A stretch of DNA of 42,871 bases, taken from NCBI GenBank assembly GCA_963169745.1, contig CAUJCU010000015.1:103134-146004 (forward strand). The letters are read 5' to 3'. A program made the position numbers and the translations under genes. Source of the DNA: Bacteroidota bacterium. GTDB taxonomy: Bacteria; Bacteroidota; Bacteroidia; UBA4408. The notes under the pieces are model-generated. The model was not told the DNA's origin. It saw nothing but the letters and a program-made list of their open reading frames with translations, and searched no databases. Below, in pieces: positions 11,026 to 26,923 of this stretch (position 1 is its first letter; each line of letters opens with the position of its first letter).

Positions 11026-11033
11026 TAATTTTG
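11026..11033 (+). promoter_or_regulatory. Candidate -7 box (TAATTTTG) for the moxR-bat operon
   Basis: TAATTTTG matches TANNTTTG and ends 33 bases before the ATG at 11067. A transcript starting about 7 bases later would exclude the upstream in-frame TTG at 11031, supporting the ATG as start. The -33 position does not match. Confidence 0.4.
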
Positions 11034-11066
11034 TATGCGATAAACAAACAAATTTTATATATTAAA

Positions 11067-12065
11067 ATGGAAACATCAGCCGTTGACATTCGCGAACTAA
11101 ACGAAAGGATTCAAAAAGAAAGCGCCTTTATTGACTTAATCAATATGGAGATGGATAAAGTAATAATAGGACAGCGTTATATGGTAGAGCGTTTACTTAT
11201 TGGATTACTCTCAAACGGTCACATCCTTTTAGAAGGAGTACCGGGTTTAGCAAAAACATTAGCTATTAAATCACTTTCCGCTACTATTCATGCCAATTTT
11301 AGTCGTATTCAGTTTACTCCTGATTTATTGCCTGCAGATGTTATTGGAACGATGATATATAATCAGAAAAAAGAAGAATTTACGGTTCGTCAAGGTCCTA
11401 TTTTCTCTAATTTTATATTAGCTGATGAGATAAACCGGGCCCCAGCCAAGGTACAAAGCGCTCTACTAGAAGCAATGCAAGAAAGACAAGTAACCATAAG
11501 CGACCAAACATACAAACTACCGGAACCTTTTTTAGTTTTAGCCACTCAAAATCCTGTTGAACAAGAAGGAACTTATCCATTGCCCGAAGCACAAGTGGAC
11601 AGATTTATGTTGAAGGTTGTTATAGGGTACCCATCAAAAGATGAGGAAAAGAAAATTATTCGTCAAAATGTATCATCAACTTTTCCAAAAACCAATACGG
11701 TTATACAACCAAGTGATATTATAAAAGCCCGTCAGGTGGTGCGTGATGTTTACATGGACGAGAAAATTGAACAATATATCGTAGATATTGTTTTTGCTAC
11801 TCGTTTTCCGGCCGACTACAAGCTAAGCAAATTAACCCAAATGATAAACTTTGGAGCTTCACCCAGAGCTAGTATCAATTTAGCTATGGCGGCCAAAGCT
11901 TATGCTTTTATTAAGCGAAGAGGTTACGTAATTCCAGAGGATGTTCGTGCTATTTGTGCTGATGTTATGCGTCACAGGATAGGACTGACTTACGAAGCAG
12001 AGGCAGAAAATATAACTTCTGAACACATTATCAACGAAATTCTAAATATGGTAGAAGTACCATAA
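11067..12065 (+). CDS. MoxR-family AAA+ ATPase
   Basis: 332 residues from the ATG at 11067; an in-frame TTG at 11031 would add 12 unlikely residues. The AAA+ core shows Walker A GVPGLAKT (57-64), Walker B ILADEINR (117-124), and the sensor region ATQNPVEQEGTYPLPEAQVDRF near 159-180, a MoxR hallmark. A C-terminal lid domain follows. MoxR ATPases act as chaperone-like partners of vWA-domain proteins, helping assembly or metal insertion. That fits here: it heads a run of DUF58 and three vWA-fold proteins. It is 41 bases ahead of the DUF58 gene and is the probable first gene of the operon to 19423. The cytoplasmic location is inferred from the lack of a signal peptide. Confidence 0.95.
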   Translation: METSAVDIRELNERIQKESAFIDLINMEMDKVIIGQRYMVERLLIGLLSNGHILLEGVPGLAKTLAIKSLSATIHANFSRIQFTPDLLPADVIGTMIYNQKKEEFTVRQGPIFSNFILADEINRAPAKVQSALLEAMQERQVTISDQTYKLPEPFLVLATQNPVEQEGTYPLPEAQVDRFMLKVVIGYPSKDEEKKIIRQNVSSTFPKTNTVIQPSDIIKARQVVRDVYMDEKIEQYIVDIVFATRFPADYKLSKLTQMINFGASPRASINLAMAAKAYAFIKRRGYVIPEDVRAICADVMRHRIGLTYEAEAENITSEHIINEILNMVEVP

Positions 12066-12106
12066 TTTTTAATGATTTGGTCTTGCCTGAAATAGTATAG
12101 AATAGT

Positions 12107-12976
12107 ATGGATTCAGTCGATCTGATAAAGAAAGTACGAAAAATTGAGATTAAGTCACGAGGGCTTTCTTCACAAATTTTCTCTGGTGAGTATCATAGTA
12201 AATTTAAAGGTCGTGGTATGGCCTTTAGCGAAGTTCGTGAGTACCAGCCGGGTGATGATATCAGAACAATTGACTGGAACGTTACAGCCCGATTCAATCA
12301 TCCCTTTGTAAAAGTTTTTGAAGAGGAACGAGAGATGACTTTGATGTTATTAGTGGATATTAGTGCCTCTGAAAACTTTGGAACAAAAAAGCAATTAAAA
12401 CAAGATCTTCTAACAGAACTTTGTGCTGTATTGGCATTTTCGGCTATGCAAAACAATGATAAAATTGGAGTTATTTTCTTTTCAGATAAAATAGAAAAGT
12501 TTATTCCACCTCAAAAAGGAAGAACTCATGTTTTAAGAATTATCAGAGAATTGATAGAATTTAAACCACAGCATAAAAGTACTGATATTGCGTTTGCTTT
12601 ACGCTATTTTAATAATATGGTAAAGAAAAGATGTACGGCCTTTTTAATTTCTGATTTTATTGATGATGATTTTGAAGATGCTTTAAAAATTGCTGGAAGA
12701 AAACATGATTTGATAGCCATAAGGCTTTATGATGAACTGGAATTAAAATTGCCAGAAGTAGGTTTGATAAATTTACGCGATAGTGAGTCAGGAAAGACCC
12801 TATGGGTTGATACTTCCAGTCGCGAATTCCAGCACCTTTATAGATCTAAATCCTTAGAATTTACGGATAAGTTAGCTGCAATTTTTAAGAGAAATGGTAT
12901 TGATTTTACAGCTATAGCTACACATCAAAACTATGTAAAGCCATTAATTGATTTATTTAAAAAGAGAGGAGGATAG
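12107..12976 (+). CDS. DUF58 domain protein (vWA-like), Bat operon
   Basis: 289 residues, no signal peptide. The DUF58 signature REYQPGDDIRTIDWNVTAR runs at about 44-62. A vWA-like fold follows, with the metal-site start DISAS at 84-88 and later FFSDK and ISDFIDDDF segments. DUF58 proteins are regular genomic partners of MoxR ATPases, and the pair is thought to act on envelope proteins; the biochemical role is not established. It lies between moxR and the BatD-like gene. Its last codons (AGG AGG-like purines before the TAG) may double as the ribosome-binding site of the next gene, whose ATG is 5 bases after the stop. Confidence 0.92.
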   Translation: MDSVDLIKKVRKIEIKSRGLSSQIFSGEYHSKFKGRGMAFSEVREYQPGDDIRTIDWNVTARFNHPFVKVFEEEREMTLMLLVDISASENFGTKKQLKQDLLTELCAVLAFSAMQNNDKIGVIFFSDKIEKFIPPQKGRTHVLRIIRELIEFKPQHKSTDIAFALRYFNNMVKKRCTAFLISDFIDDDFEDALKIAGRKHDLIAIRLYDELELKLPEVGLINLRDSESGKTLWVDTSSREFQHLYRSKSLEFTDKLAAIFKRNGIDFTAIATHQNYVKPLIDLFKKRGG

Positions 12977-12981
12977 TACTT

Positions 12982-13938
12982 ATGTTTTCGAGCAAATATT
13001 TTAAATATAGGGCTTTGCAAATCGCTTTTGCAATACTATTGTATAGTGTGTCATCAAAGGCACAAGAACTGCATGTTTCGGCTGTTTTAGATTCTAACAA
13101 TATCAAAATAGGAAAACAATCACACATAATTTTAAAAGCTATTGCTTCAAAGGGAATATCAGTTGTTTTTCCTGAAGTGAAAGATTCACTTACTTCACAT
13201 GTTGAACTCTTGAGCAGTAGTAAAATAGATACTGTGTCCGCAGGCAATAAAATTACTTATCAGCAAAAGTTAGTCATAACAGCTTTTGATAGTGGCTATT
13301 TTCCTATACCCCCTTTTGCGTTTACCATAAAGGGCGATAGTTCAAAGAAATTTGAAACAGAGGCTTTGCTCTTTGTGGTGCAAACAGTACCGGTAGATAC
13401 GACTCAAGCTATTAAAAGTATAAAAGGCCCTATTACTCCAGCTTGGAGCATTTTTGAAATTCAAAACGAAATTCTTGCAGCACTGCTAATTATTTTACTT
13501 GTAATTGCTCTGTTTTACTATCTAAAGCACCGGAAAAAAACAATTATTGAAACTCCTGCAGAGCCTGTAATTACCAAACCAGCCGATGAGATTGCTCTAG
13601 AAGCATTACAAAAATTACGTGAGCAAAAGCTTTGGCAACAAGGAAAAGTAAAAGAATATCACATAATTATTTCAGACACGATTAGAGCATACTTAGAAAG
13701 AAAATTTTCAGTAGGTGCTATGGAAATGACTAGTGATGAAATATTGAAGAGTGTGCGTTTATTGATTACCGACCAACCAACCAAATCAAAGCTTAAGAGT
13801 GTGTTGATACTGAGCGATATGGTTAAGTTTGCCAAAGAAGTGCCACTTCCTCTCGAAAACGAAGCCAGCATTGACAATGCTATAGAGTTTGTAAAGTTGA
13901 CTACAATACCATTACAAAAGGAGGATTTAAAAGTATGA
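12982..13938 (+). CDS. BatD-like single-pass membrane protein of the Bat operon
   Basis: 318 residues. The signal peptide ends SSKAQ near 28. A beta-rich periplasmic domain (about 30-150, starting LHVSAVLDSNNIKIGKQ) resembles the repeated N-terminal units of BatD. A single membrane helix (about 163-182, ILAALLIILLVIALFYYL) follows, then a basic and then helical cytoplasmic part (about 195-318). It looks like a short BatD with one extracytoplasmic domain, and such a gene commonly sits between DUF58 and batA in Bacteroidota. A purine-rich GAGAGGAGG just before the start is one of the few Shine-Dalgarno-like sites here. Its 3' end overlaps batA by 4 bases, implying coupled translation. No enzyme motif is seen; the role is unknown beyond the operon context. 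Confidence 0.75.
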   Translation: MFSSKYFKYRALQIAFAILLYSVSSKAQELHVSAVLDSNNIKIGKQSHIILKAIASKGISVVFPEVKDSLTSHVELLSSSKIDTVSAGNKITYQQKLVITAFDSGYFPIPPFAFTIKGDSSKKFETEALLFVVQTVPVDTTQAIKSIKGPITPAWSIFEIQNEILAALLIILLVIALFYYLKHRKKTIIETPAEPVITKPADEIALEALQKLREQKLWQQGKVKEYHIIISDTIRAYLERKFSVGAMEMTSDEILKSVRLLITDQPTKSKLKSVLILSDMVKFAKEVPLPLENEASIDNAIEFVKLTTIPLQKEDLKV

Positions 13939-14945
13939 AAGACATAAGCTTTGCTAATCCAAATTTTTTGTGGCTGCTGTTATTTATTCCACTAATCACT
14001 GCATGGTATATTTATAAGAGTTATTATCGTGCTAATACATTATCCTTTTCATCGAAAACGTTGTTTAAGAATAGCTTTCTTAAGAAAACTCTGAAAGCCT
14101 ATTTACGTCATATCCCTTTTATACTGCGAAACATTACGTTGATCTTATTAATTATTGCTTTAGCACGGCCTCAATCAAAGCATAGTTGGCAGGATATAAA
14201 AACCGAGGGAATAGATATAGTCTTGGCTGTAGATATATCAGCATCTATGTTGGCTAAAGATTTAAAACCCAATCGCTTGGAGGCTAGTAAAGCTGTTGCT
14301 TCCGATTTTATTGATAAGCGCCCTGACGATCGCATTGGCTTGGTAATTTTTAGCGGAGAAAGCTTTACGCAATGCCCCTTAACAACAGATCATGCGGTTT
14401 TGAAAAACCTTTTTTCATCAATTAAGACAGGAATCTTGCAAGATGGTACCGCTATTGGAATGGGATTAGCAACAGCAGTCAGCCGCCTTAAAGACAGTAA
14501 AGCAAAAAGCAAAGTAATTATTTTGCTCACAGATGGGGTAAACAACTCTGGCTCCATAGCACCCGAGCTTGCGGCCGATTTGGCGCGTCCATTTGGTATC
14601 AGAATTTATACCATTGGGGTAGGAACAACCGGTATGGCCTATTCACCTGTAGGAATTTATCCCAACGGGCAGTATGTGTACGATTATGTTAAAGTTGAAA
14701 TTGATGAAAAAGTACTAAAGAAAATATCAGATACAACAGGAGGGAAGTATTTCAGAGCTACTGATAATACAAAACTAAAAGAAATATACAAAGAAATTGA
14801 TAAGTTAGAAAAATCAATTATTGAAGAGAAACAATACTCACGAAAATCAGAACTTTTTCTACCCTTAGCTATTGGCGCACTGGTGCTTTTGTTGTTGGAA
14901 TTTATACTTAAAAATACTATATTTAGAACAATTACAGGAAGTTGA
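13935..14945 (+). CDS. batA: BatA: vWA-domain membrane protein
   Basis: 336 residues. Two membrane segments lie at about 10-26 and 60-78, and one near the C-terminus (about 312-330). Between them is a von Willebrand factor A domain whose metal-ion-dependent adhesion site begins DISAS at 100-104, with the companion segments CPLTTDHAV and LLTDGVNNSG. The topology matches BatA of the Bacteroides aerotolerance operon, where the loss of bat genes impairs growth under oxygen stress. It should sit in the inner membrane with its vWA domain available to MoxR. It overlaps the upstream gene by 4 bases (ATGA) and ends 1 base before batB. BatA and BatB are close paralogues; the naming here follows gene order. 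Confidence 0.93.
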   Translation: MKDISFANPNFLWLLLFIPLITAWYIYKSYYRANTLSFSSKTLFKNSFLKKTLKAYLRHIPFILRNITLILLIIALARPQSKHSWQDIKTEGIDIVLAVDISASMLAKDLKPNRLEASKAVASDFIDKRPDDRIGLVIFSGESFTQCPLTTDHAVLKNLFSSIKTGILQDGTAIGMGLATAVSRLKDSKAKSKVIILLTDGVNNSGSIAPELAADLARPFGIRIYTIGVGTTGMAYSPVGIYPNGQYVYDYVKVEIDEKVLKKISDTTGGKYFRATDNTKLKEIYKEIDKLEKSIIEEKQYSRKSELFLPLAIGALVLLLLEFILKNTIFRTITGS

Positions 14946-14946
14946 T

Positions 14947-15987
14947 ATGGGATTTCGATTTGAAAATATTTTGTTTTTATATGGTTTACTGATTATTCCG
15001 GTATTACTATTTGCTATTATTTTTATTTTAAGATGGAGAAATCGAACATTATTAAAGATTGCTGAATTACCTCTGTTACCCGTAATTATTCCCCATATAT
15101 CACGTACCAAAATTATTTGGCGTTATATACTTTTTTGTATATCCATAGCACTTCTTATAATTGCTATTGCAAATCCACAATTTGGAACAAAATTAGAAGA
15201 AGTAAAACGAAAAGGAATTGAGATTATGATTGTTCTTGATGTATCTAACAGTATGCGTGCTCAAGATTTAGCTCCCAATCGATTGGAAAATGCAAAACAA
15301 TCTATAGGCCGTTTAATAAATAATTTGAATGATGACAAAATTGGTATTGTTGTTTTTGCTGGTCAAAGTTATGTTCAACTACCTATTACAACCGATTATA
15401 GCTCGGCTAAGCTTTTTTTAGATAATATATCAACTGATATGATAGCCACCCAAGGAACAGCAATTGGCTCAGCTATTGATTTGGCGCGTGAATCGTTTGA
15501 TGCAAAAAGTGAAACACAAAAAGCCATAATTGTAATAACTGATGGTGAAAATCATGAAGACGATGCTATACAAGCCGCTAAAACTGCTGCCGAAAATGGA
15601 ATTAATGTTTTTACTATTGGAGTTGGCTCTGAAGCAGGAGTTCCTTTACCTATAATAATCAATGGGGCTGTTTCCTCATATCGAAAAGACAATGAAGGAA
15701 ATACGATAATTTCAAAGTTAAATGCTACTTTGCTCAAAGATGTTGCAGCTGCAGGCAAAGGTATTTACGTACAAGCAGGTAAAAGTCAATCGGCTTTAAA
15801 TGTGGTTATGAACGAGCTGAATAAAATGGATAAAAAAGAGTATGCCTCTAAAAAATATACCGATTATGAGGGACGCTTCCAATTCTTCATTGCAGCATGT
15901 ATCGTGCTTTTAATTGTTGAAAGTACACTATCTGAACGAAAAAGCAAACTGCTTAAAAAGTTGAATTTGTTTAATGAAAAAGAATAA
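14947..15987 (+). CDS. batB: BatB: vWA-domain membrane protein
   Basis: 346 residues from the ATG at 14947 (MGFRFENILF). An in-frame TTG at 14872 would overlap batA by 74 bases and add non-hydrophobic residues, so I rejected it. The layout copies BatA: two N-terminal membrane segments (about 10-29 and 57-75), a vWA domain with the MIDAS start DVSNS at 98-102, LPITTDYSS, and VITDGENHED, then a C-terminal helix (about 315-330). It is the paralogue of BatA one base upstream. The two probably form a membrane assembly with the other Bat proteins. The 3' end lies immediately before or overlaps batC, depending on the batC start. Confidence 0.93.
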   Translation: MGFRFENILFLYGLLIIPVLLFAIIFILRWRNRTLLKIAELPLLPVIIPHISRTKIIWRYILFCISIALLIIAIANPQFGTKLEEVKRKGIEIMIVLDVSNSMRAQDLAPNRLENAKQSIGRLINNLNDDKIGIVVFAGQSYVQLPITTDYSSAKLFLDNISTDMIATQGTAIGSAIDLARESFDAKSETQKAIIVITDGENHEDDAIQAAKTAAENGINVFTIGVGSEAGVPLPIIINGAVSSYRKDNEGNTIISKLNATLLKDVAAAGKGIYVQAGKSQSALNVVMNELNKMDKKEYASKKYTDYEGRFQFFIAACIVLLIVESTLSERKSKLLKKLNLFNEKE

Positions 15988-16009
15988 TAAAATGAAAAGA
16001 GGACAGAAA

Positions 16010-16747
16010 ATGAAACCAATCAAGCTGCAGCTTTTCCTAATTATGTCTTTGATTTTTCAAATTTCATGGGCACAAAAAGAAAATAAGGATATTAGAAGCG
16101 GTAATAAGCTGTATCAGGACAAAAAATATGAAGCTGCAGAAAAAAAATACAAAGAGGCTTTATCAAAAAATAAAGATTCACATGTTGCCGGCTTTAACTT
16201 AGGTGATGCATTTTATGAGCAAAAAAAGTACAATGAAGCGGTAGATCAATTTAATCTCTTTTCCAAAAATGCAAAAAACACGAAAGAGCAGGCAGAGGCA
16301 TTTCATAATTTAGGTAATGCTTATCTCCAAGCCAATAAATATCAGGAAAGTATTAATGCTTATAAAAGCGCTTTAAAATTGAGTCCGAATGACAACGATA
16401 CACGCTATAATCTTGCTTATGCACAAGCTAAATTAGTTCAACAGCAACAACAACAGGAGCAGAATAAAGATAAAAATCAAGACAAAAAGGATAAACAAGA
16501 TAATCAGGATAAACAAGACAATCAAAAGCAAAAAGACAAGTCGGAGCAAAATAAAGAAAAGCAAGATAAACAAGAACAGCAACAGAAAGAAGAACAACAG
16601 AAAGAAGCACAGAAAAATCCTAAAATGAGCAAAGAAGATGCAGAACGATTATTGAATGCTTTAAATAATAAAGAGAAGGATTTGCATGAAAAGATGAAAA
16701 AGAAAGATGGGCAAGAAGTTAGAATTCACATTGAGAAAGACTGGTAA
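16010..16747 (+). CDS. batC: BatC: exported TPR protein with charged low-complexity tail
   Basis: About 245 residues. Three in-frame ATGs (15974, 15992, 16010) are possible. I chose 16010 because it gives a clean signal peptide (MKPIKLQLF to SWAQ) and is preceded by a Shine-Dalgarno-like AGAGGACAG. The first two would place Lys/Arg-rich residues ahead of it and the first overlaps batB by 14 bases. Three tetratricopeptide repeats span about 25-130. A striking Lys/Gln/Asp/Glu-rich stretch (about 140-205) follows, then a conserved-looking end with MSKEDAERLLNALNN. TPR domains bind other proteins, so it is probably a periplasmic scaffold for BatA/BatB. Codons in the low-complexity stretch are almost all purine-rich. 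Confidence 0.88.
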   Translation: MKPIKLQLFLIMSLIFQISWAQKENKDIRSGNKLYQDKKYEAAEKKYKEALSKNKDSHVAGFNLGDAFYEQKKYNEAVDQFNLFSKNAKNTKEQAEAFHNLGNAYLQANKYQESINAYKSALKLSPNDNDTRYNLAYAQAKLVQQQQQQEQNKDKNQDKKDKQDNQDKQDNQKQKDKSEQNKEKQDKQEQQQKEEQQKEAQKNPKMSKEDAERLLNALNNKEKDLHEKMKKKDGQEVRIHIEKDW

Positions 16748-16801
16748 CCAAAGTTAATTTATTTTCAAAGTTTGCAAATTACATAAGGAATGGGAAAAAT
16801 C

Positions 16802-18649
16802 ATGTTTTACAAAAAAGAAATAAATATTTTTATCTTGATTTTTGGGATATTGTTTGCCGGCTGTTTGTTTGCACAAGACGCCTCATTCACAGCATCAGTA
16901 AGTAAGAATAAAGTAGCGGCAGGAGAGCAGTTTCAAATAGTTTTTACAATAAATACCAACGCCTCTAATTTCTCAGCTCCCGATTTAAGTAACTTTTATA
17001 TTTACAGCGGCCCCAATCAATCTACCAGTATGAATATTGTTAATGGTAGTATGTCTCAATCTGTTTCTATAAATTATATTGTTGCAGCCAAAAAGGAAGG
17101 GAGATACACAATTGGCCCAGCATCAATACGGGTAGGGTCAAAAACATTAAACACCAAAAGTATTTCTATAGAAGTTACAAAAGGAAATGCCTCCTCAGGC
17201 GGAAACTCAAGTAATACTAACACTAATCAAAACAATACGAATAGCCCGTATCCTGAAGATGTTGAAAGCAATATTTTTATGCGTGTTATTGCTAGTAAAA
17301 GTAAATTATATATAGGCGAACAACTACTGGTAACTTATAAAGTTTATACACGATTAAATATTGTAGATAATGCTTTATCAAAAGCCCCGTCATTTAATGG
17401 TTTTTGGTCTGAAGAAGTTCCTAACCCTACTCGCCAAACAGAACTTCGTACCGAAGTGCTTGACGGAATTCAATATCAAGTAGCTGAAATAAAAAAGACC
17501 ATACTCATTCCTCAAAAATCAGGAACTTTAACTATAGATCCTTTAGAAATGGATATTGTAACGCGTGTAAAATCCAAATCAAGAAGCAATAGTATTTTCG
17601 ATCAATTTTTTGGAGGGGGCTATCAAGATGTTAAACTGACAATAGCCAGTAAGCCGCTAAAAGTGGAAATAATGCCCTTACCCGAAAAGGGACGCCCTGT
17701 TGATTTTTCAGGAGCCGTAGGGCAACTCAAAATGGAGGCAACAATAAAAAATAATGAACTGAAAACCGATGATGCGTGTAATTTGACCTATACAATAAGC
17801 GGGAAAGGGAATTTAAAATTATTAGAAGCTTTTAAGCTCAATTTGCCCACTGATATTGAAAGTTATGATCCAAAAATTACAGATAAAATAAACGTTAGTG
17901 CTGATGGTGTTTCAGGTTCTCGCTCATTTGAGTATTTGCTTATTCCACGACATGCCGGCAATTTTGCCTTACCGCCAATTGCTTTCTCCTATTTTGACCC
18001 CCAAAAACGAGCATACATTACGCTCCCGGCTTCAGAGTTTCAGTTAAAAGTGTCTAAAGGCTTGGGAAATGACGGTATGGTTGTGTCTAGAGAAACAAAT
18101 AAACAAGATATAAAAATTACAGGTAACGATATACGCTATATAAAAACCAATATCCCTAAATTTATTCCATTGCACAACACGTTTCTCGATTCTAATTTGT
18201 TTTGGGTATTTATTTTATTCCCAATTATTGTTTATCTAATTTTCTTTATTTGGTACCGTAAGTATAAAAAGCAAATGGCCGATGCACAGGGGGTAAAAAG
18301 AAGAAAAGCTAACTCTATGGCTCAAAAACAACTTAAAATAGCTCAGGAGTTTTTAAGCAAAAACGAGTATAATCCTTTTTTTGAAGAATTATTTAAAGCA
18401 TTATACGGTTATCTGAGTAATAAACTCTCCTTAAGCCAATCAGAACTAAATAAGAGTAAAATAGAAGAAATGCTTTCACAAAAAGGTGTAGAATTAGAAC
18501 CTATTCAAAAAATAATAAATGTACTGGAAACCTGTGAATTTGCTCGTTTCGCTCCAGTTAAAGATGAAAAAAAGATGAAACAAGCTTATCAAGATGCCAT
18601 TGAAATAATATCACTACTTGAAGATAAACTGAAAAATAAAAGCAATTAA
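16802..18649 (+). CDS. batD: BatD: oxygen-tolerance family membrane protein
   Basis: 615 residues from the ATG at 16802; an ATG at 16790 would add four residues but sits directly against the AAGGA ribosome-binding-like motif. The N-terminal signal (about 8-25, ending LFAQ) leads to several beta-sandwich units (about 28-450), each with the phrases of the BatD family (KNKVAAGEQFQIVFTI, SKSKLYIGEQLLVTYKV, PVDFSGAVGQL). One membrane helix follows (about 467-485), then a basic helical cytoplasmic domain. FAGC near the signal end could also serve as a lipobox, but the family is normally anchored by its C-terminal helix. It is the largest Bat protein and probably the extracytoplasmic partner of BatA/B/C. 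It ends 3 bases before batE. Confidence 0.93.
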   Translation: MFYKKEINIFILIFGILFAGCLFAQDASFTASVSKNKVAAGEQFQIVFTINTNASNFSAPDLSNFYIYSGPNQSTSMNIVNGSMSQSVSINYIVAAKKEGRYTIGPASIRVGSKTLNTKSISIEVTKGNASSGGNSSNTNTNQNNTNSPYPEDVESNIFMRVIASKSKLYIGEQLLVTYKVYTRLNIVDNALSKAPSFNGFWSEEVPNPTRQTELRTEVLDGIQYQVAEIKKTILIPQKSGTLTIDPLEMDIVTRVKSKSRSNSIFDQFFGGGYQDVKLTIASKPLKVEIMPLPEKGRPVDFSGAVGQLKMEATIKNNELKTDDACNLTYTISGKGNLKLLEAFKLNLPTDIESYDPKITDKINVSADGVSGSRSFEYLLIPRHAGNFALPPIAFSYFDPQKRAYITLPASEFQLKVSKGLGNDGMVVSRETNKQDIKITGNDIRYIKTNIPKFIPLHNTFLDSNLFWVFILFPIIVYLIFFIWYRKYKKQMADAQGVKRRKANSMAQKQLKIAQEFLSKNEYNPFFEELFKALYGYLSNKLSLSQSELNKSKIEEMLSQKGVELEPIQKIINVLETCEFARFAPVKDEKKMKQAYQDAIEIISLLEDKLKNKSN

Positions 18650-18652
18650 AAG

Positions 18653-19423
18653 ATGAAAAAAAATGCTTTGTTTCTTGTCCTTGTTTTTATATGGTTCTCA
18701 CTACTTCCTGTAAAAACATTTGCTATTGAGAATAATCTTTTGTTCTTAAAGGCACAAAAATATTATGAAGAAAAAGACTACGAAAGTGCCATTAAGACTT
18801 ATAAAGAGATTCTTAATCATCAAGTTATATCGAGTGAGCTTTTTTACAATCTAGGGAATTGTTATTATAAAACAGACAGCATCGGACGAGCGATCCAATA
18901 TTATGAAAAAGCTCGGAAGTTATCTGGTGTTGATGATGATTTGATGTATAATCTTAAAGTTGCTCACAGCAAAACAATTGATAAAATTGAACCCATGCCT
19001 GAATTTATCATTACCTCAACATGGAAAAATATTGTGAACTATAAAACAGCAGATAACTGGGCTGAATATGCAGCCATAAACTTTTTTATGGTGTTTTTTG
19101 CACTGATTTTATTTCACTTGGCCAAGCAGCCTCAAATAAAAAAGATGTTTTTTGGTGCAACCTTAATTTTTTTAACGCTATCATCCTTATTTTACTTCTT
19201 AGCCAAAAACAGAAACGAATCCAGAAATACGTTTAATCATGGAGTAATTATTACAGCCTCGGTTTCAGTTAAAAGTGAACCTCAAACAGGAGCCACACAA
19301 TTATTTGTAGTTCATGAGGGAACTGTTTTTAGAATAGTAGAATCTCAAAACAATTGGCTTAAAATTAGATTAGATAATGGAAATGTAGGTTGGGTAACGC
19401 AACAAGAAATTGGAACAATTTAA
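18653..19423 (+). CDS. batE: BatE: TPR and SH3-like membrane protein
   Basis: 256 residues. A signal peptide (about 4-24) precedes tetratricopeptide repeats (about 27-105, YYEEKDYESAIKTYKEIL, FYNLGNCYYKTDSIGRAIQYYEKA). Two membrane helices lie at about 141-158 and 164-182. The C-terminal 60 residues form a bacterial SH3-like domain (SVSVKSEPQTG, WLKIRLDNGNVGWV), a fold often used for binding cell-wall peptides or proteins. This TPR-TM-SH3 order is that of BatE. It is the last gene of the operon. A T-run 45 bases downstream has no convincing stem, so the terminator is not clear. Confidence 0.9.
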   Translation: MKKNALFLVLVFIWFSLLPVKTFAIENNLLFLKAQKYYEEKDYESAIKTYKEILNHQVISSELFYNLGNCYYKTDSIGRAIQYYEKARKLSGVDDDLMYNLKVAHSKTIDKIEPMPEFIITSTWKNIVNYKTADNWAEYAAINFFMVFFALILFHLAKQPQIKKMFFGATLIFLTLSSLFYFLAKNRNESRNTFNHGVIITASVSVKSEPQTGATQLFVVHEGTVFRIVESQNNWLKIRLDNGNVGWVTQQEIGTI

Positions 19424-19629: not shown

Positions 19630-22503
19630 ATGAGACACTTTGTTTTATCTTGGATAATGCTTTTGTGGGTTGGTAATTTCTCTTATGCTCAAACTGGAAA
19701 TAACGGAATATATATTGGGAATGACACCTCAATATGTGGAGGGGCAAATTTAGCCTTACATGCAACTTTAAACGTTCTTTCTAATGTTTCTTCTAATGGG
19801 ATTAATTTAAGTGATGATGTTTATTCGCAAGTAATTCCTATAGGGTTTACGTTTAATTTTTATGGAAACAATTATTCTCAATGTCTTATTTCTACTAATG
19901 GGTATATTACTTTTAACACGGCTTCGTCAGGAGGCTACTCCCCATGGAGTATTAACGCCCCTATTCCGAGCTCATTAGACCCTACTAATGCCATAATGGG
20001 GCCCTGGCAAGATGTGAACCCGGGTGCTGGTGGTTCCATTGTTTATGCATCATTTGGAACTGCTCCCAACCGTAAGTTTGTTGTACAATGGGATAATCCT
20101 ATGTTTAGTTGTACAAATCTATGTTTTGGAAATCAAATTATTTTATACGAAAGCTCAAATATTATTGAAACCCATATTGGAAATAAACCGATATGCTCTT
20201 CATGGAACACCGGAAAGGCAATTCACGGACTTCAAAACGCTTCAGGCACATTGGCCACAGTAGTTCCCGGGCGAAATGCCAATATGCAGTGGTCAACTAC
20301 TATGGAAGGGAAGCGATTTTCTCCTTCTGGGGGCAATTATACAATATCGAGCATACCATATACACCGATATTCCTTGGTTTGGCCAATAATAGTGTAATT
20401 TCTTGGTCTATAGCCGGTGGAGCTGCTTTAGGAACAGGAGCCAATATTAATGTAAGTCCTACCCAAACTACCAGTTATGTTGCTGCTGTATCTAGTGTAA
20501 CATGTGGAGGTACAGCACAAAGCAGTAGTTTTACTTATTATGATACATTAGTAGTAACTATATCTGATCCTGTTGTTACAACTTATAGTCAAAATGCTGA
20601 TTGTGCTACTGGTGCTGGTGGCATGGTTTGGGCCACAGTAACCGGTGCTGCACCACCCTATAATTTTATTTGGAATACTAATCCGCCTACAAATAACGAT
20701 ACTGTATTTAATGCCAATGTAGGAACGTATTCTGTTACTCTTACCGATGCTAGCGGATGCGTTGCTTCAGGTTCAGCAACTATTACGCAACAAGGATCGT
20801 TAATAACTGCTGTGGTGTTTACTACTGATTTATTATGCAATGGCGTGCCAACAGGTAGCTTACAAGTGGAGGCGAGTGGAACCAATGGTCCATACATTTA
20901 TGTACTAGGCAACGATACGAGCTACACCGGAATTTTTAGTAACTTACCTGCTGGTGTTCACAATGTTCAAGCTTTTGATGCCATTGGTTGCGGAGCTGTG
21001 CAACAGGTTACCCTAAACCAGCCGGCTGCACCTCTAACATTAACCCAAAATACACATGTTAATGTTTCTTGTTTTAATTTGAACAATGGGTCTGCGACTT
21101 TCGCTGCCTCGGGTGGTACACCTCCCTATAATTATAGTAGCGGAGTGACTAACAACACGAATGGGACATTTAATAATTTAACTGCTGGGCCTTATGTTTT
21201 TTCTGTTTCTGACGGAAATGGCTGTTATCTAACTATTTTAGATACAATAACACAACCTCAAAAATTGGAAGCCTTCGTTGCTTCTTCAACCAATATTTTA
21301 TGTTACGGACAAAGTAATGGATCTGCTACAGCAATGGCTAGTGGAGGAGAGGTGCCATATTCTTATACGTGGAACTCAATCCCGGTTCAAAATAATGCTC
21401 AAGCCCTTATGCTAAGTCAAGGCACTTATCAAGTTGTTGTTAGTGACAATAACTCTTGTACTGCAAGTGCTAACATTCAAATAACTCAACCAGATTCTAT
21501 AGCAGTTACCTTAAATAGTGAAATCTCACTCTGTCAAACCTATGATACTACCCTAATTGCTTATGCATCAGGTGGTACAGGACAAATAAATTTTAATTGG
21601 AGTCCGGGCAATTCGAATACTTCCTCTTTAATCGTTGCTCCCATGAGCAACACTACTTATACGGTAACGGCAACTGACATAAATGGTTGCTCAAAATCGA
21701 AACTAACTAACGTGTTAGTCTTTGGAAGCCCCGAAGTGAGTTTTACCAAAAATTCTTCAAAGGGCTGTCCGGCCTTTTGCCCTACTTTTACAGATTTAAC
21801 ATTAAGTCCAGCAGGAAGTATTAATTCCTTTCGTGAATGGGATTTTGGGGATGGTCAAATAGTTCGAAATGATTCGGTTGCTGATCACTGCTATAATGTT
21901 CCGGGTAATTATTCCGTTACATTAACAGTTGTTACGGATAAGGGTTGCAAGAAATCGCTTACTAGAGATTCTTACATTGAGGTATATCCTAACCCCAATG
22001 CAGCCTTTGTGACTAATCCTGTTGTTACCGATATAATGAACCCTAATGTTGAAATTACAAATTTAACTACCGAGGGAAGTACATATTCATGGAACTTTGG
22101 AGATAGCGACTCTTTGTTTACAGAACTTAATCCAAAACATATCTACCGTGATACAGGAACCTATACAATTCGATTGATTTCAGTATCAAATCAAGGTTGT
22201 ATAGACAGCACTAAGGCATTTGTAACAATAAATCCTTACTATACTTTCTATATGCCAAACTCTTTTACACCTAATGGTGACGGGTTAAATGATATTTTTG
22301 AAGTGAATGGTAATTATATTAAAGAGTGCCAGATGGAGATATTTGACCGCTGGGGAAAAATTATATTCACTCAGGCTGGAACCTATAAAGTTTCATGGGA
22401 TGGTGCTAACACTCCTCAAGGGGTTTACGTATATAAGCTAAAAATAAAAGATACCATGGACATGCCCTATGAATATATTGGCCAGGTAGTTCTAATAAAA
22501 TAA
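19630..22503 (+). CDS. Large surface protein: SprB-type repeats, PKD domains, CHU_C (T9SS type B)
   Basis: 957 residues. After the signal peptide (about 1-20) an N-terminal beta domain (about 50-240) has phrases such as IGFTFNFYGNNY, ISTNGYITFN and VVQWDN, reminiscent of nidogen-like or lectin-like modules. Four SprB-type repeats (about 315-623), an Ig-like unit (about 624-700) and two PKD domains (about 703-868, with WDFGDG and WNFGDS) follow. The protein ends in the gliding-motility-associated C-terminal domain (about 869-957: PNSFTPNGDGLND, IFDRWGK, WDGAN, QGVYVYKLKIKD), which targets proteins to the type IX secretion system. It should be an extracellular adhesin-like protein. The gap to the next gene is one base, and that gene shares this architecture. 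Confidence 0.9.
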   Translation: MRHFVLSWIMLLWVGNFSYAQTGNNGIYIGNDTSICGGANLALHATLNVLSNVSSNGINLSDDVYSQVIPIGFTFNFYGNNYSQCLISTNGYITFNTASSGGYSPWSINAPIPSSLDPTNAIMGPWQDVNPGAGGSIVYASFGTAPNRKFVVQWDNPMFSCTNLCFGNQIILYESSNIIETHIGNKPICSSWNTGKAIHGLQNASGTLATVVPGRNANMQWSTTMEGKRFSPSGGNYTISSIPYTPIFLGLANNSVISWSIAGGAALGTGANINVSPTQTTSYVAAVSSVTCGGTAQSSSFTYYDTLVVTISDPVVTTYSQNADCATGAGGMVWATVTGAAPPYNFIWNTNPPTNNDTVFNANVGTYSVTLTDASGCVASGSATITQQGSLITAVVFTTDLLCNGVPTGSLQVEASGTNGPYIYVLGNDTSYTGIFSNLPAGVHNVQAFDAIGCGAVQQVTLNQPAAPLTLTQNTHVNVSCFNLNNGSATFAASGGTPPYNYSSGVTNNTNGTFNNLTAGPYVFSVSDGNGCYLTILDTITQPQKLEAFVASSTNILCYGQSNGSATAMASGGEVPYSYTWNSIPVQNNAQALMLSQGTYQVVVSDNNSCTASANIQITQPDSIAVTLNSEISLCQTYDTTLIAYASGGTGQINFNWSPGNSNTSSLIVAPMSNTTYTVTATDINGCSKSKLTNVLVFGSPEVSFTKNSSKGCPAFCPTFTDLTLSPAGSINSFREWDFGDGQIVRNDSVADHCYNVPGNYSVTLTVVTDKGCKKSLTRDSYIEVYPNPNAAFVTNPVVTDIMNPNVEITNLTTEGSTYSWNFGDSDSLFTELNPKHIYRDTGTYTIRLISVSNQGCIDSTKAFVTINPYYTFYMPNSFTPNGDGLNDIFEVNGNYIKECQMEIFDRWGKIIFTQAGTYKVSWDGANTPQGVYVYKLKIKDTMDMPYEYIGQVVLIK

Positions 22504-22504
22504 A

Positions 22505-25500
22505 ATGAAAGTTTATTCAATTAAAAAATTTGTTTTTCATTTCTTATTTCTAATAATTGGGTTTTCTGGCTTTCAATCAGTTGCCCAGCCATGCGTAGGA
22601 AGTGTAAGCTCTACTGTTAACCCTCAACCAACCGGAGGCGGGTATGCACCAGGAACTGTAGTAACTTATTGTTATACTGTTAATAATTATTCAATGTCCG
22701 GATCCAACTGGTTTGAGGGCTTTTCAATTCAATTGGGGCCTGGATGGTTGCCTGGTTCTATTACCCCTGTTACCTATCCAACAAATTTTCAAGGAGGAGG
22801 GGGGCAGTGGATATGGGTGTCGAATACTTTTGTAAACAATGGTGTTACTTTTGGTCCAGGTTTTTTCTTTGATTTAGATATGAACGGCATATCACAGAAC
22901 GATTTTGGTGATTCTGGAGCCGGCCCATGGACTATGTGTTTTAGTGTTACTGTTGGAAATGTTCCGGGTTCTTCTTTGGGAGTTGGAGTTGCTCCCGTTT
23001 CTGATGGGTATGCCGGCTCTTGGACTAATGGGGGATGTAACGGATTAATATTTACACCTGTTACACCATCTACTATAATTGTATTAGGTTGCGGTAACCT
23101 CATTCCTTCTGTTGCAAATCAAATTAATGTTGTTTGTAATGGAGACAGTAATGGAAGCTTTACTATTGGCACTTCAAACGGAGCACCTCCTTTTACCTTT
23201 TCATTTCAAGGGGGGCCTTTTAATGCAACCAATAATTTTACAAACTTAGCTGCTGGAACTTATACAGTTGTTATTCAAGATGCAAATAACTGCACTATTC
23301 CCTTTCCGGTAACCATCACTCAGCCTACGAACCCTTTAAGTGTTACCTTGATATTTAAAAATAACCCGGGGTGTGCTAATGGGGCAACCGGAAATTATAG
23401 AATTATTGGAACCGGTGGCACAGGTCCATATACCTATTCAACCGATGGTGTAAATTTTGTTCCTCCCAATAACGGAGCATCGTTCCAAACCAATGGTTTA
23501 GCAGCTGGAACGTATACTGTTTTTGTTAAAGATACAAATGGTTGTACGGCTTCTATTGATATAACTATAACACCTCCACTACCTTTAACGGGTACTATTA
23601 CTGCTCAAACAAATGCCCCGTGTGGAGCTACCGGGAATGGAAGTGTTACAATTGCAGGGGCAGGAGGAACTCCGGTATATACCTATTCAATAGATGGAGG
23701 TGCTTTTCAACTTAGCGGAACTTTTAATAATTTGACTCCCGGAAATCACACCGTAACAATTAAAGATGCTAACAACTGTTCTACCACAGTGTTGGTTGAT
23801 ATTCTACAACCCACAAATCCTAATGGGGCTGTTGATGCTCAAACTAATGTGGATTGTTTTGGAAATGCAACGGGAAGCCTTACACTGAGCGGAGCCAATG
23901 GTACAGCTCCATATACCTTTTCGCTTAACGCTGGCGCCTTTTCTTCAGGCCCTTTTAACAACTTAGCTGCCGGTGTTTATAATATTACGGTACAAGATGT
24001 TAATGGATGTACGGGAACCTTTAATGCCACTATTACTGAACCAGCCTCATTAGTACTAAACATTGCAAACCAAATTAATGTAAATTGTTTTGGTGCTTCA
24101 ACAGGTTCCGTTACACTCTCAGGTAGTAATGGAACAGCCCCTTTTTCATATAGTGACGGAGTAAATAACAACACAAACGGTATTTTCAATGGATTAGCAG
24201 CGGGCAATTATGCCTACACCATGACGGACAATAATGGCTGTACCACTACTATTAATGCTACAATTACTCAACCTGCAACGGGAGTAGGGGCTATTATAGT
24301 TGTTCAAAACAATGTATTATGCTCGGGTACATCCACCGGAAGTTTTACCCTTCAGGGGAACAACGGAGCACCTCCATATTCCTATACCTTAAACGGAACA
24401 ACCAATACTACCGGAACTTTTACAAACTTAGGAGCTAATATATATAATGTTACGGTGTCTGATGCTAATGGGTGTACTTTTATTCAAACAGTAAATTTAA
24501 ACTCACCAAATGCCTTAACAGCTTTAATTGCCAACCAAACAGCAGTGAGCTGTTTTGGAGGAAACAATGCTAGTGTTACAGTAACAGCAAGTAATGGAAC
24601 TAATCCTTATACCTTCACTTTGGGAGCAACCAATAATGCTACCGGTGTATTTAATAGCTTAGCTGCAGGTGCTTATAACGTAATTGTTTCTGATGCTAAT
24701 GGCTGTACTTTTGATCAACCTGTAACCATAACGCAGCCGGCTGCTGCGTTAAGCACATCGATAAATAACCAAACTAATGTTTCCTGTTTCGGTGGTAATA
24801 ATGGCTCTGTTACAATTTTAGCCTCTAATGGAACCGGACCATTCTCTTATCAGTTGGGTGCAACTACAAACAATAGTGGAATTTTTAATAATTTGAACAG
24901 CGGAAACTATTCAGTTACCGCAACGGATAATAACGGCTGCATCACGAATCAGGCGGTTACCATTACACAACCTGCTGCAGCTTTAGGAGCTACAACAACG
25001 AGTGTTACACCTGTTGATTGTTTTGGCAGTAATACCGGACAGTTTCAAATTTCCGGAACAGGTGGTACTGCACCTTATAGTTACACAATGGGGGCATTAA
25101 ATAATACAACCGGACAATTTACTAATTTAACTGCAGGAATTTATACTGTAAATGTTACTGATATTAATTCATGCGCTTTTGCCTATCAGGTAACAGTTAC
25201 AGAGCCTGCTGCTCCTTTAGCTTTAAATATTGACAATCAAACTAATGTTATCTGTTTTGGTGGCACAACCGGCTCGTTGCAGCTCTCTGCTGCAGGAGGT
25301 ACGCCCAACTACTTATTTGGACTAAGTGGCACAACTTTAAGTAATAACCCACAAATTACAGGCCTTGCAGCAGGAACATTTACAGTATTAGTAAAAGATA
25401 ACAATGGCTGTACAACAACAATTAATGCAACTATTACGCAACCAGCTCAAGGTATTAGTGGAACAGTGAATAATACTACCGATATTTTATGCTTTGGTGG

Positions 25501-26923
25501 AAGCACAGGGCAAATATCACTAACGGCAGCAAACGGTACTCCTCCTTACAGCTATACCTTGGGTCCAAATACAAATACTACCGGAACATTTACAAACCTA
25601 AGTGCAGGGGCTTATACTGTTAATATTACTGACAATAATGGTTGTGTAGGCCAGTCATCAGTAACGCTTACTCAGCCTGCAACAATTCTATCCGTTACCG
25701 TTCCCACTATTACAAATCCATTATGTAATGGAAGCAGTAATGGAGTAGCTGCTGCATTGGCTACAGGCGGTACCAGTAATGGAAATTACACCTATTCATG
25801 GAACACCAATCCTCCACAGAACACTAACCAGGCTAATAATTTACCGGCTGGTACATACACCATTACAGTAACTGATAATAATAATTGTGTTGCAACAGCT
25901 GTGGTTACTCTAACAGAACCAAATTTTCAACTAAACTCTACAGCTTCGGCTGCTTTATGTAAAGGTGAAACGGTTACACTAACAGCCTCTTCCCTTGATG
26001 CTGCTGCTCCTGTAATTTACACTTGGACCAATCAAAATGATGGAAGTACAATACAAGGTAATGCTATAAGTGTAAGCCCAAATACTACAACCAACTATAC
26101 TGTAATAGCTACTGATGCCAATGGTTGTGTAACTACAGCCAACATTGTTCCAATTACCGTTAATCCGGCCCCTGTAGCCTTATTTACTGAAGATATTAAA
26201 GAAGGCTGTCAACCACTTTGTGTTACGTTTACAGCTTTGGCTACATTGCCCGGAACTAATTGGAACTGGGATTTTGGAGATGGTCAAACAGATGTTGGAC
26301 AAAATGCAGTTCACTGTTTTAAAGAGTCAGGGCTTTATTCTGTATCCTTAACTGCTGTTTCAGACATGGGCTGTAAAAATACCATTCAAAAAAATGATTT
26401 AATTACCGTTTATCAAATTCCTAAAGTCATTTTCTCTGTAGAGCCTAAAGAAACTACTATTTCTAATCCTACAGTATATGTTTCGAACCAAACAGTTGGA
26501 GCTGAAGAATACCTTTGGACTTTTGATAAAAAGAATACTTCTTCGCTTTTTGAACCAACCTTTTCTTATACAGAGCCAGGTGAATATTGTATTCTGTTGT
26601 TAGCTACCAATGATTATGGGTGTATTGATTCCAGTAGAGAATGTGTAACCATTAAACCCGATTATACCATTTATGTTCCAAACGCATTTACACCTAATGG
26701 AGACGGGTTAAATGATGTGTTTTTGCCCTTGGCACAATCAGTAAGAGAATATGAATTGATTATATACAATCGTTGGGGTTTAAAAGTTTTTACTTCCAAC
26801 GAATTAAATTTGGGCTGGAATGGAGCTACTGAAGCTCAAGGAGCCTATAATTACGTAATACTTCTTACTACTAACGGTGGAGAAGAAAAAATTTATTCCG
26901 GTAGTGTAACCTTATATCGTTGA
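22505..26923 (+). CDS. Giant adhesin-like protein: 12 SprB repeats, PKD domains, CHU_C
   Basis: 1472 residues. A signal peptide (about 1-27) is followed by an unassigned, Gly/Trp-rich N-terminal domain (about 30-196) with four or more cysteines. Twelve SprB repeats of about 78 residues span roughly 199-1140. Most have one cysteine early (CFGG, CNG) and one late (NGC, NNC), with the linker xITQPA. An Ig-like unit (about 1141-1226), two PKD domains (about 1228-1384, WDFGDG) and the CHU_C sorting domain (about 1385-1472: PNAFTPNGDGLND, IYNRWGL, WNGATEAQGAYNY) follow. SprB of Flavobacterium is a mobile adhesin for gliding; many relatives are just surface proteins. It is cotranscribed with the 957-residue paralogue. 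The repeats have diverged at DNA level, so they are old. Confidence 0.92.
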   Translation: MKVYSIKKFVFHFLFLIIGFSGFQSVAQPCVGSVSSTVNPQPTGGGYAPGTVVTYCYTVNNYSMSGSNWFEGFSIQLGPGWLPGSITPVTYPTNFQGGGGQWIWVSNTFVNNGVTFGPGFFFDLDMNGISQNDFGDSGAGPWTMCFSVTVGNVPGSSLGVGVAPVSDGYAGSWTNGGCNGLIFTPVTPSTIIVLGCGNLIPSVANQINVVCNGDSNGSFTIGTSNGAPPFTFSFQGGPFNATNNFTNLAAGTYTVVIQDANNCTIPFPVTITQPTNPLSVTLIFKNNPGCANGATGNYRIIGTGGTGPYTYSTDGVNFVPPNNGASFQTNGLAAGTYTVFVKDTNGCTASIDITITPPLPLTGTITAQTNAPCGATGNGSVTIAGAGGTPVYTYSIDGGAFQLSGTFNNLTPGNHTVTIKDANNCSTTVLVDILQPTNPNGAVDAQTNVDCFGNATGSLTLSGANGTAPYTFSLNAGAFSSGPFNNLAAGVYNITVQDVNGCTGTFNATITEPASLVLNIANQINVNCFGASTGSVTLSGSNGTAPFSYSDGVNNNTNGIFNGLAAGNYAYTMTDNNGCTTTINATITQPATGVGAIIVVQNNVLCSGTSTGSFTLQGNNGAPPYSYTLNGTTNTTGTFTNLGANIYNVTVSDANGCTFIQTVNLNSPNALTALIANQTAVSCFGGNNASVTVTASNGTNPYTFTLGATNNATGVFNSLAAGAYNVIVSDANGCTFDQPVTITQPAAALSTSINNQTNVSCFGGNNGSVTILASNGTGPFSYQLGATTNNSGIFNNLNSGNYSVTATDNNGCITNQAVTITQPAAALGATTTSVTPVDCFGSNTGQFQISGTGGTAPYSYTMGALNNTTGQFTNLTAGIYTVNVTDINSCAFAYQVTVTEPAAPLALNIDNQTNVICFGGTTGSLQLSAAGGTPNYLFGLSGTTLSNNPQITGLAAGTFTVLVKDNNGCTTTINATITQPAQGISGTVNNTTDILCFGGSTGQISLTAANGTPPYSYTLGPNTNTTGTFTNLSAGAYTVNITDNNGCVGQSSVTLTQPATILSVTVPTITNPLCNGSSNGVAAALATGGTSNGNYTYSWNTNPPQNTNQANNLPAGTYTITVTDNNNCVATAVVTLTEPNFQLNSTASAALCKGETVTLTASSLDAAAPVIYTWTNQNDGSTIQGNAISVSPNTTTNYTVIATDANGCVTTANIVPITVNPAPVALFTEDIKEGCQPLCVTFTALATLPGTNWNWDFGDGQTDVGQNAVHCFKESGLYSVSLTAVSDMGCKNTIQKNDLITVYQIPKVIFSVEPKETTISNPTVYVSNQTVGAEEYLWTFDKKNTSSLFEPTFSYTEPGEYCILLLATNDYGCIDSSRECVTIKPDYTIYVPNAFTPNGDGLNDVFLPLAQSVREYELIIYNRWGLKVFTSNELNLGWNGATEAQGAYNYVILLTTNGGEEKIYSGSVTLYR

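Follow-up and report, generated by a model that had tools for sequence, protein, structure and literature searches.

SprB-type stalks carry load in Bacteroidota gliding and in surface attachment. The tandem gene pair described here shares the repeat family PF13573 and a type B CHU_C end with SprB, the gliding adhesin of Flavobacterium johnsoniae, and its genome also encodes a T9SS. Among T9SS cargo, orphan type B substrates have a sorting domain without an adjoining shuttle gene, as the pair does, and three such substrates of F. johnsoniae share one shuttle, according to the accessible part of the source (PMC12618676). A disulfide between SprF and GldK is described, in the accessible part of a second paper, as carrying mechanical load in Bacteroidota gliding (PMC12635249); that bond joins two proteins on the periplasmic side, whereas the bonds proposed below would lie inside a surface stalk. 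The best solved relative of the pair is grappling hook protein A (GhpA) of Aureispira sp. CCB-QB1 (PDB 9flp, 9flw, 9flu, 9g8b), which is 5898 aa long as compared to 957 and 1472 aa for the two proteins. GhpA was matched by profile (E 4.1e-76), in an alignment with cysteines at each of the two repeat positions, and by fold (Foldseek E 7.3e-07; Z 10.1, rmsd 6.0 over 221 residues). The likeness is one of related stalk modules, not of common function. In titles and the starts of abstracts we found no junction staples in SprB-type stalks; the primary GhpA paper, which lies outside this coverage, may describe them.

The pair lies in the window, the 42,871-nucleotide stretch that was analysed, and has the following features:

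19630 to 22503, plus strand: gene 1, T9SS type B surface protein, 957 aa, 4 SprB repeats
19735 to 20505, plus strand: gene 1 head, residues 36-292, which from a reading of the sequence may be an Ig-like module (C36 ... C292) with an inserted sandwich
20566 to 21513, plus strand: gene 1 SprB array, cysteine pairs 325/377, 403/454, 481/532 and 558/610
21514 to 22500, plus strand: gene 1 tail, Ig-like (cysteines 635/687), PKD1 (713, 717, 754, 773), PKD2 (857) and CHU_C (900)
21763 to 21780, plus strand: gene 1 GCPAFC motif, residues 712-717
22252 to 22458, plus strand: gene 1 CHU_C / type B sorting domain core
22505 to 26923, plus strand: gene 2, T9SS type B surface protein, 1472 aa, 12 SprB repeats
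22592 to 23092, plus strand: gene 2 head, residues 30-196, with five conserved cysteines (30, 56, 145, 178, 196)
23099 to 25942, plus strand: gene 2 SprB array, 12 repeats
25943 to 26920, plus strand: gene 2 tail, Ig-like, PKD1, PKD2 and CHU_C
26204 to 26221, plus strand: gene 2 GCQPLC motif, residues 1234-1239
26672 to 26914, plus strand: gene 2 CHU_C / type B sorting domain core

Pfam assigns four SprB repeats (PF13573) to gene 1 and 12 to gene 2, with PKD domains and a C-terminal CHU_C in both. The SprB repeat scored 67 and 240.6 bits against a curated cut-off of 28, CHU_C 56.2 and 54.9 bits (cut-off 27), and the T9SS type B sorting domain NCBIfam TIGR04131 47 and 36.7 (cut-off 35). The gene 1 head had no Pfam match above cut-off. 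The initial annotation, made from the sequence, had proposed tandem SprB/PKD/CHU_C genes one base apart with about 4 and about 12 repeats and a common tail order of Ig-like, PKD with a GCxxxC motif, PKD and CHU_C; this layout is borne out in both proteins, with the repeat numbers exact. In the ORF reading the stop codon TAA of gene 1 is followed by one A and the ATG of gene 2.

Upstream of the pair is a MoxR/Bat-type gene group (window 11031-19423; VWA, TPR, BatD and SH3-TPR proteins), and downstream are metallophosphoesterase and NADH dehydrogenase genes. We searched eight genomes of the family and compared the gene order in three other genomes of the genus (G001, G002, G003). The order batE, gene 1, gene 2, phosphoesterase is found in two of the three (G002 and G003), with gaps of 5 and 6 bases between gene 1 and gene 2 if the first ATG is the start. 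G001 has gene 2 followed by the same downstream genes and no gene 1 before it. The MoxR/Bat-type group adjoins the pair in G002 and G003 and was not seen upstream in G001. The long proteins of the genus, encoded by gene 2, are 64-66% identical to that of the window. The tight spacing in three genomes suggests that the two genes are co-expressed, which we regard as likely from gene order; a promoter and terminator scan between them gave values close to the shuffle mean. It is plausible that the two proteins may act as a pair of rods with different heads, as had been suggested.

The genome (2.99 Mb, 24 contigs) contains SprA, GldM and GldK above cut-off, so that the proposed search for sprA-F and gldK-N elsewhere did turn up a T9SS. 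It also contains 24 CHU_C matches above cut-off, so the two proteins are only two among many type B cargo proteins and belong, as ordinary members, to a large, widespread and known family. None of the six PorP/SprF matches in the genome is on C15, the contig of the pair, which makes the two proteins orphan type B substrates; the six PorP/SprF proteins elsewhere in the genome are candidate shuttles for them. In contrast to SprB of F. johnsoniae, no PorP/SprF gene lies beside the pair, and a better SprB candidate is encoded on contig C22. This 3029-aa CHU_C protein (L240, C22:51000-66000) has many Ig-type repeats, each with a cysteine pair, adjoins a PorP/SprF gene and is the likeliest SprB of the genome. 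A Cys-x-Cys motif is invariant in SprF tails, according to the accessible text of PMC12635249. In the six PorP/SprF-family proteins of this genome (L169-L174) the motif was found in 0/6, anywhere in the ORF as read. The organism may not glide, or may glide differently.

Every SprB repeat of the pair contains exactly one pair of cysteines (16/16; 4/4 in gene 1 and 12/12 in gene 2). The initial annotation had reported paired cysteines in most repeats, which understates the pattern, since all 16 repeats have the pair and so does the Ig-like module after each array. In the repeats and in these Ig-like modules the first cysteine, C1, lies just past the first strand, and the second, C2, lies in an NGC motif or its variants. 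The 24 array cysteines are the only ones between residues 205 and 1142 of gene 2, and gaps of 51-57 residues take turns with gaps of 26-27. Four of four genomes of the genus retain the full set of 38 cysteines in gene 2, with extra ones only at residues 9, 16 and 25. In gene 1, 20 of the 22 cysteines are kept in three of three genomes; the head cysteines C85 and C165 are both missing in G003. In a first sample outside the genus, both cysteines were present within 3 residues in 289 of 320 unique repeats, and the pair is therefore a family trait of SprB repeats and not peculiar to this locus. The pattern is not chance.

Three pairings of these cysteines were compared: C1(n) with C2(n) of the same module, C2(n) with C1(n+1), and C1(n) with C2(n+1). 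The exact occurrence of one cysteine pair in every repeat fits the first, which the initial annotation had put forward as a lock of each module by its own disulfide and under which the cysteine parity works in gene 1 too. The second would link cysteines about 26 residues apart in sequence, a spacing that is short and very regular (26-27). The comparison used the joint loss of cysteines in related arrays. A repeat profile with cysteines masked in both profile and targets was run on 157 sources (the window, L060-L138 and L177-L253); L001-L059 and L139-L176, which are short or overlapping copies, were excluded from the statistics. The search found 1333 repeats, 1320 of which were scored, in 117 ORFs and 209 arrays, and 13 were dropped. 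A separate alignment of 91 of 656 triplets was made from triplets that were all picked for complete cysteines, and the cysteine conservation in it is therefore no evidence.

C1(n) and C2(n+1) were absent together 41 times as compared to a shuffle mean of 18.9, a number reached by none of 1000 shuffles (odds ratio 44.5). Joint absence of C1 and C2 from the same repeat (32 versus 36.3) showed no excess over within-array shuffles, and that of C2(n) and C1(n+1) (13 versus 19.0) fell below them. Without L189, L211 and L240 the joint absence of C1(n) and C2(n+1) was 23 versus 10.3, again reached by none of 1000 shuffles. The cysteine windows were widened twice after inspection of discordant cases: C1 had been scored absent in some Ig-type repeats because the cysteine sits 5-6 residues later, and C2 lies several residues later in some repeats. 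The odds ratio for C1(n) and C2(n+1) was 127 after the first widening and 340 after the second, and with the widest windows both cysteines were present at 1052 junctions, one at 22 and neither at 37. About 35 discordant junctions of both kinds (17+17) remained after the first widening and 22 after the second. In three loci (L181, L210, L211) a repeat variant with DANYN or a similar sequence has C2 displaced several residues downstream, which explains part of the discordant junctions.

With the widest windows, interior repeats had lost a single cysteine in 65 cases and both in 3. Ten ORFs contained a junction at which repeat n lacks C1 and repeat n+1 lacks C2, and no ORF contained a repeat without both cysteines between two complete repeats. 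Same-module bonds would give repeats that lack both, but the joint losses fall on C1(n) and C2(n+1), so that the same-module lock is left unsupported. Its pooled odds ratios exceed 1 (4.0, 5.7 and 4.9), which favors it, but they are not above within-array shuffles. At array ends, C1 was missing from the last repeat in 20 of 101 cases and C2 in 7 of 101, which is what C1(n)-C2(n+1) pairing would give; array starts do not discriminate, with C2 absent from the first repeat in 15 of 101 cases and C1 in 13 of 101. Counted per ORF the signal is modest, since in the sign test 11 of 29 ORFs exceed their own shuffle mean and 5 fall short of it, and several of the co-loss events come from orthologues (L189, L205, L211). 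Linker length did not differ between junctions with and without the two cysteines (median 26 residues in both). The arrays of L189, L205, L211 and L225 consist of super-units of three repeats, and in each super-unit one junction is without both staple cysteines (.2 1. 12), as if these junctions were hinges at a fixed period.

The tails follow the same rule. We found 48 tails and aligned 43; the five excluded ones (L074, L088, L089, L115, L228) are low-scoring and contain 11-15 cysteines each. In 39 of the 43 tails the Ig module has its C1 and PKD1 its C2, in the other 4 both cysteines are absent, and no tail has one without the other; one of these four (L110) is also without most of its other cysteines. 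All 43 tails have C1 of PKD1, which is residue 1235 of gene 2, and C2 of PKD2, which is residue 1373. PKD2 has no second cysteine in 29 of the 43 tails and can have no in-domain partner there, which speaks against a bond inside each module, because the cysteine of PKD2 is invariant. By these sequence comparisons the Ig-PKD-PKD tail obeys the same C1(n)-C2(n+1) rule as the array. Other cysteines of the tail come and go in pairs: C1239 and C1271 of gene 2 occur together (8/8) and are absent together in 35 tails, and C1362 and C1380 occur together (5/5) and are absent together in 38. Both sets would be in-domain pairs, 1362-1380 in gene 2 being the second. The first cysteine of GCxxxC would then form the staple between PKD1 and PKD2 and the second an in-domain pair (1239-1271 in gene 2, 717-754 in gene 1); staple rule and in-domain pair together explain the GCxxxC motif of PKD1.

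Structure models agree with the co-loss pattern. AlphaFold2 gave a pLDDT of 97.4 and a pTM of 0.81 for a fragment of three consecutive gene 2 repeats (window 24734-25459), in which the linkers have a pLDDT of about 98, and a pLDDT of 94.2 and a pTM of 0.66 for the gene 2 tail from SprB repeat 12. The first modelled repeat has strands at residues 7-14, 24-31, 38-41, 44-46, 50-54, 57-64 and 70-77. Its C1, at residue 18, falls between the first strand and the second, and its C2, at residue 69, between the sixth and the seventh. The models thus place C1 between strands A and B and C2 between F and G. In a linear rod the first loop of an Ig-fold module is at its exit end and the last loop at its entry end. 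From strand order and this geometry, C1(n) and C2(n+1) are expected to meet at the junction, where they would face each other, while C1 and C2 of one module would be about a strand length apart, the kind of separation that the initial annotation had named as speaking against its lock.

The predicted topology bears on both other pairings. It assigns the C1 and the C2 of any given module to loops at different ends of the strands, and with the co-loss pattern and the lone PKD2 cysteine this led us to reject the same-module disulfide, which we consider improbable. The bond between C2(n) and C1(n+1) is less probable still: the topology sets the two cysteines apart, with C2(n) at the near end of its module and C1(n+1) at the far end of the next, and their joint losses fall below the shuffles. 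A further arrangement keeps the pairing and moves the bond between neighboring chains, as in a bundle of rods. Co-loss statistics are blind to the difference, and GhpA, the relative with solved structures, forms a large assembly at the surface. But in the models the loops of adjacent modules meet in one chain by topology and the linkers are predicted with confidence, so that an in-chain bond is the simplest reading, and we rate between-chain bonds as unlikely, on a par with the same-module lock.

We therefore favor a C1(n)-C2(n+1) disulfide within the chain, and consider it likely that such a bond staples every stalk junction in both proteins. In the gene 2 array the staples would be 211-347, 290-425, 373-502, 451-579, 528-657, 606-734, 683-812, 761-890, 839-969, 917-1047 and 996-1128. 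A further staple, 1074-1208, would join the last SprB repeat to the Ig module, and 1152-1290 and 1235-1373 would brace the tail. For the head the pairs 56-145, 30-178 and 196-263 are guesses (C263 is C2 of repeat 1), and with these guesses included all 38 cysteines of gene 2 have a partner. In gene 1, C292 and C900, conserved in three of three genomes, are without a partner in the staple scheme.

In the proposed mechanism the modules would fold in the periplasm and be oxidized there or at the surface, and the protein would be exported by the T9SS via its CHU_C domain and remain attached to a PorP/SprF shuttle. Each bond would run from C1, located in the A-B loop at the C-terminal end of module n, to C2, located in the F-G turn at the N-terminal end of module n+1. 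Since staple n+1 begins before staple n ends, the staples would overlap, and a single rod with covalent bracing would extend from the first SprB repeat through the last PKD domain; CHU_C would lie at its cell end, and the head at its tip would differ between the two proteins. In a graph count over repeats 1-13 of gene 2, between residues 200 and 1225, the shortest path runs over 218 bonded steps with staples, as compared to 358 with same-module bonds and 1025 with none; pulling would thus run along a short covalent path and the rod would be stiffened under load.

The cysteines very probably form disulfides. They could instead be conserved for another reason, such as metal binding or folding, and stay reduced. 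Neither VKOR nor Thioredoxin_4 had a match in the genome, and one of its two DSBA-family matches looks cytoplasmic, which would suit reduced cysteines. But the second DSBA-family protein (L262, C15:50813-51394) carries a lipoprotein-type signal and a CSSC motif, and from its sequence it is a possible periplasmic oxidant. Moreover, the co-loss is specific and pairwise, and disulfides in surface and periplasmic proteins have been shown in F. johnsoniae, according to the accessible part of PMC12635249. We regard reduced cysteines as the least probable reading.

The proteins of the pair are of an already-known kind, and stapling between modules is what differs from the earlier reading. If true, stapling at each junction would account for the straightness of rods made of dozens of small Ig modules and for their survival under pulling, and such rods would be unusually stiff and hard to pull apart. 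A single module, cut out and expressed alone, would have two free cysteines, which would change the design of constructs. A missing C1(n) with a missing C2(n+1) would mark a free joint, and this simple rule could be applied to the many proteins that share the cysteine pattern. Whether the same holds throughout the phylum we see as evenly balanced: SprB-type stalks across Bacteroidota may be interlocked chains of overlapping disulfides in which force bypasses most of the fold, the rod can hardly unravel, and staples omitted periodically in some proteins act as regular hinges.
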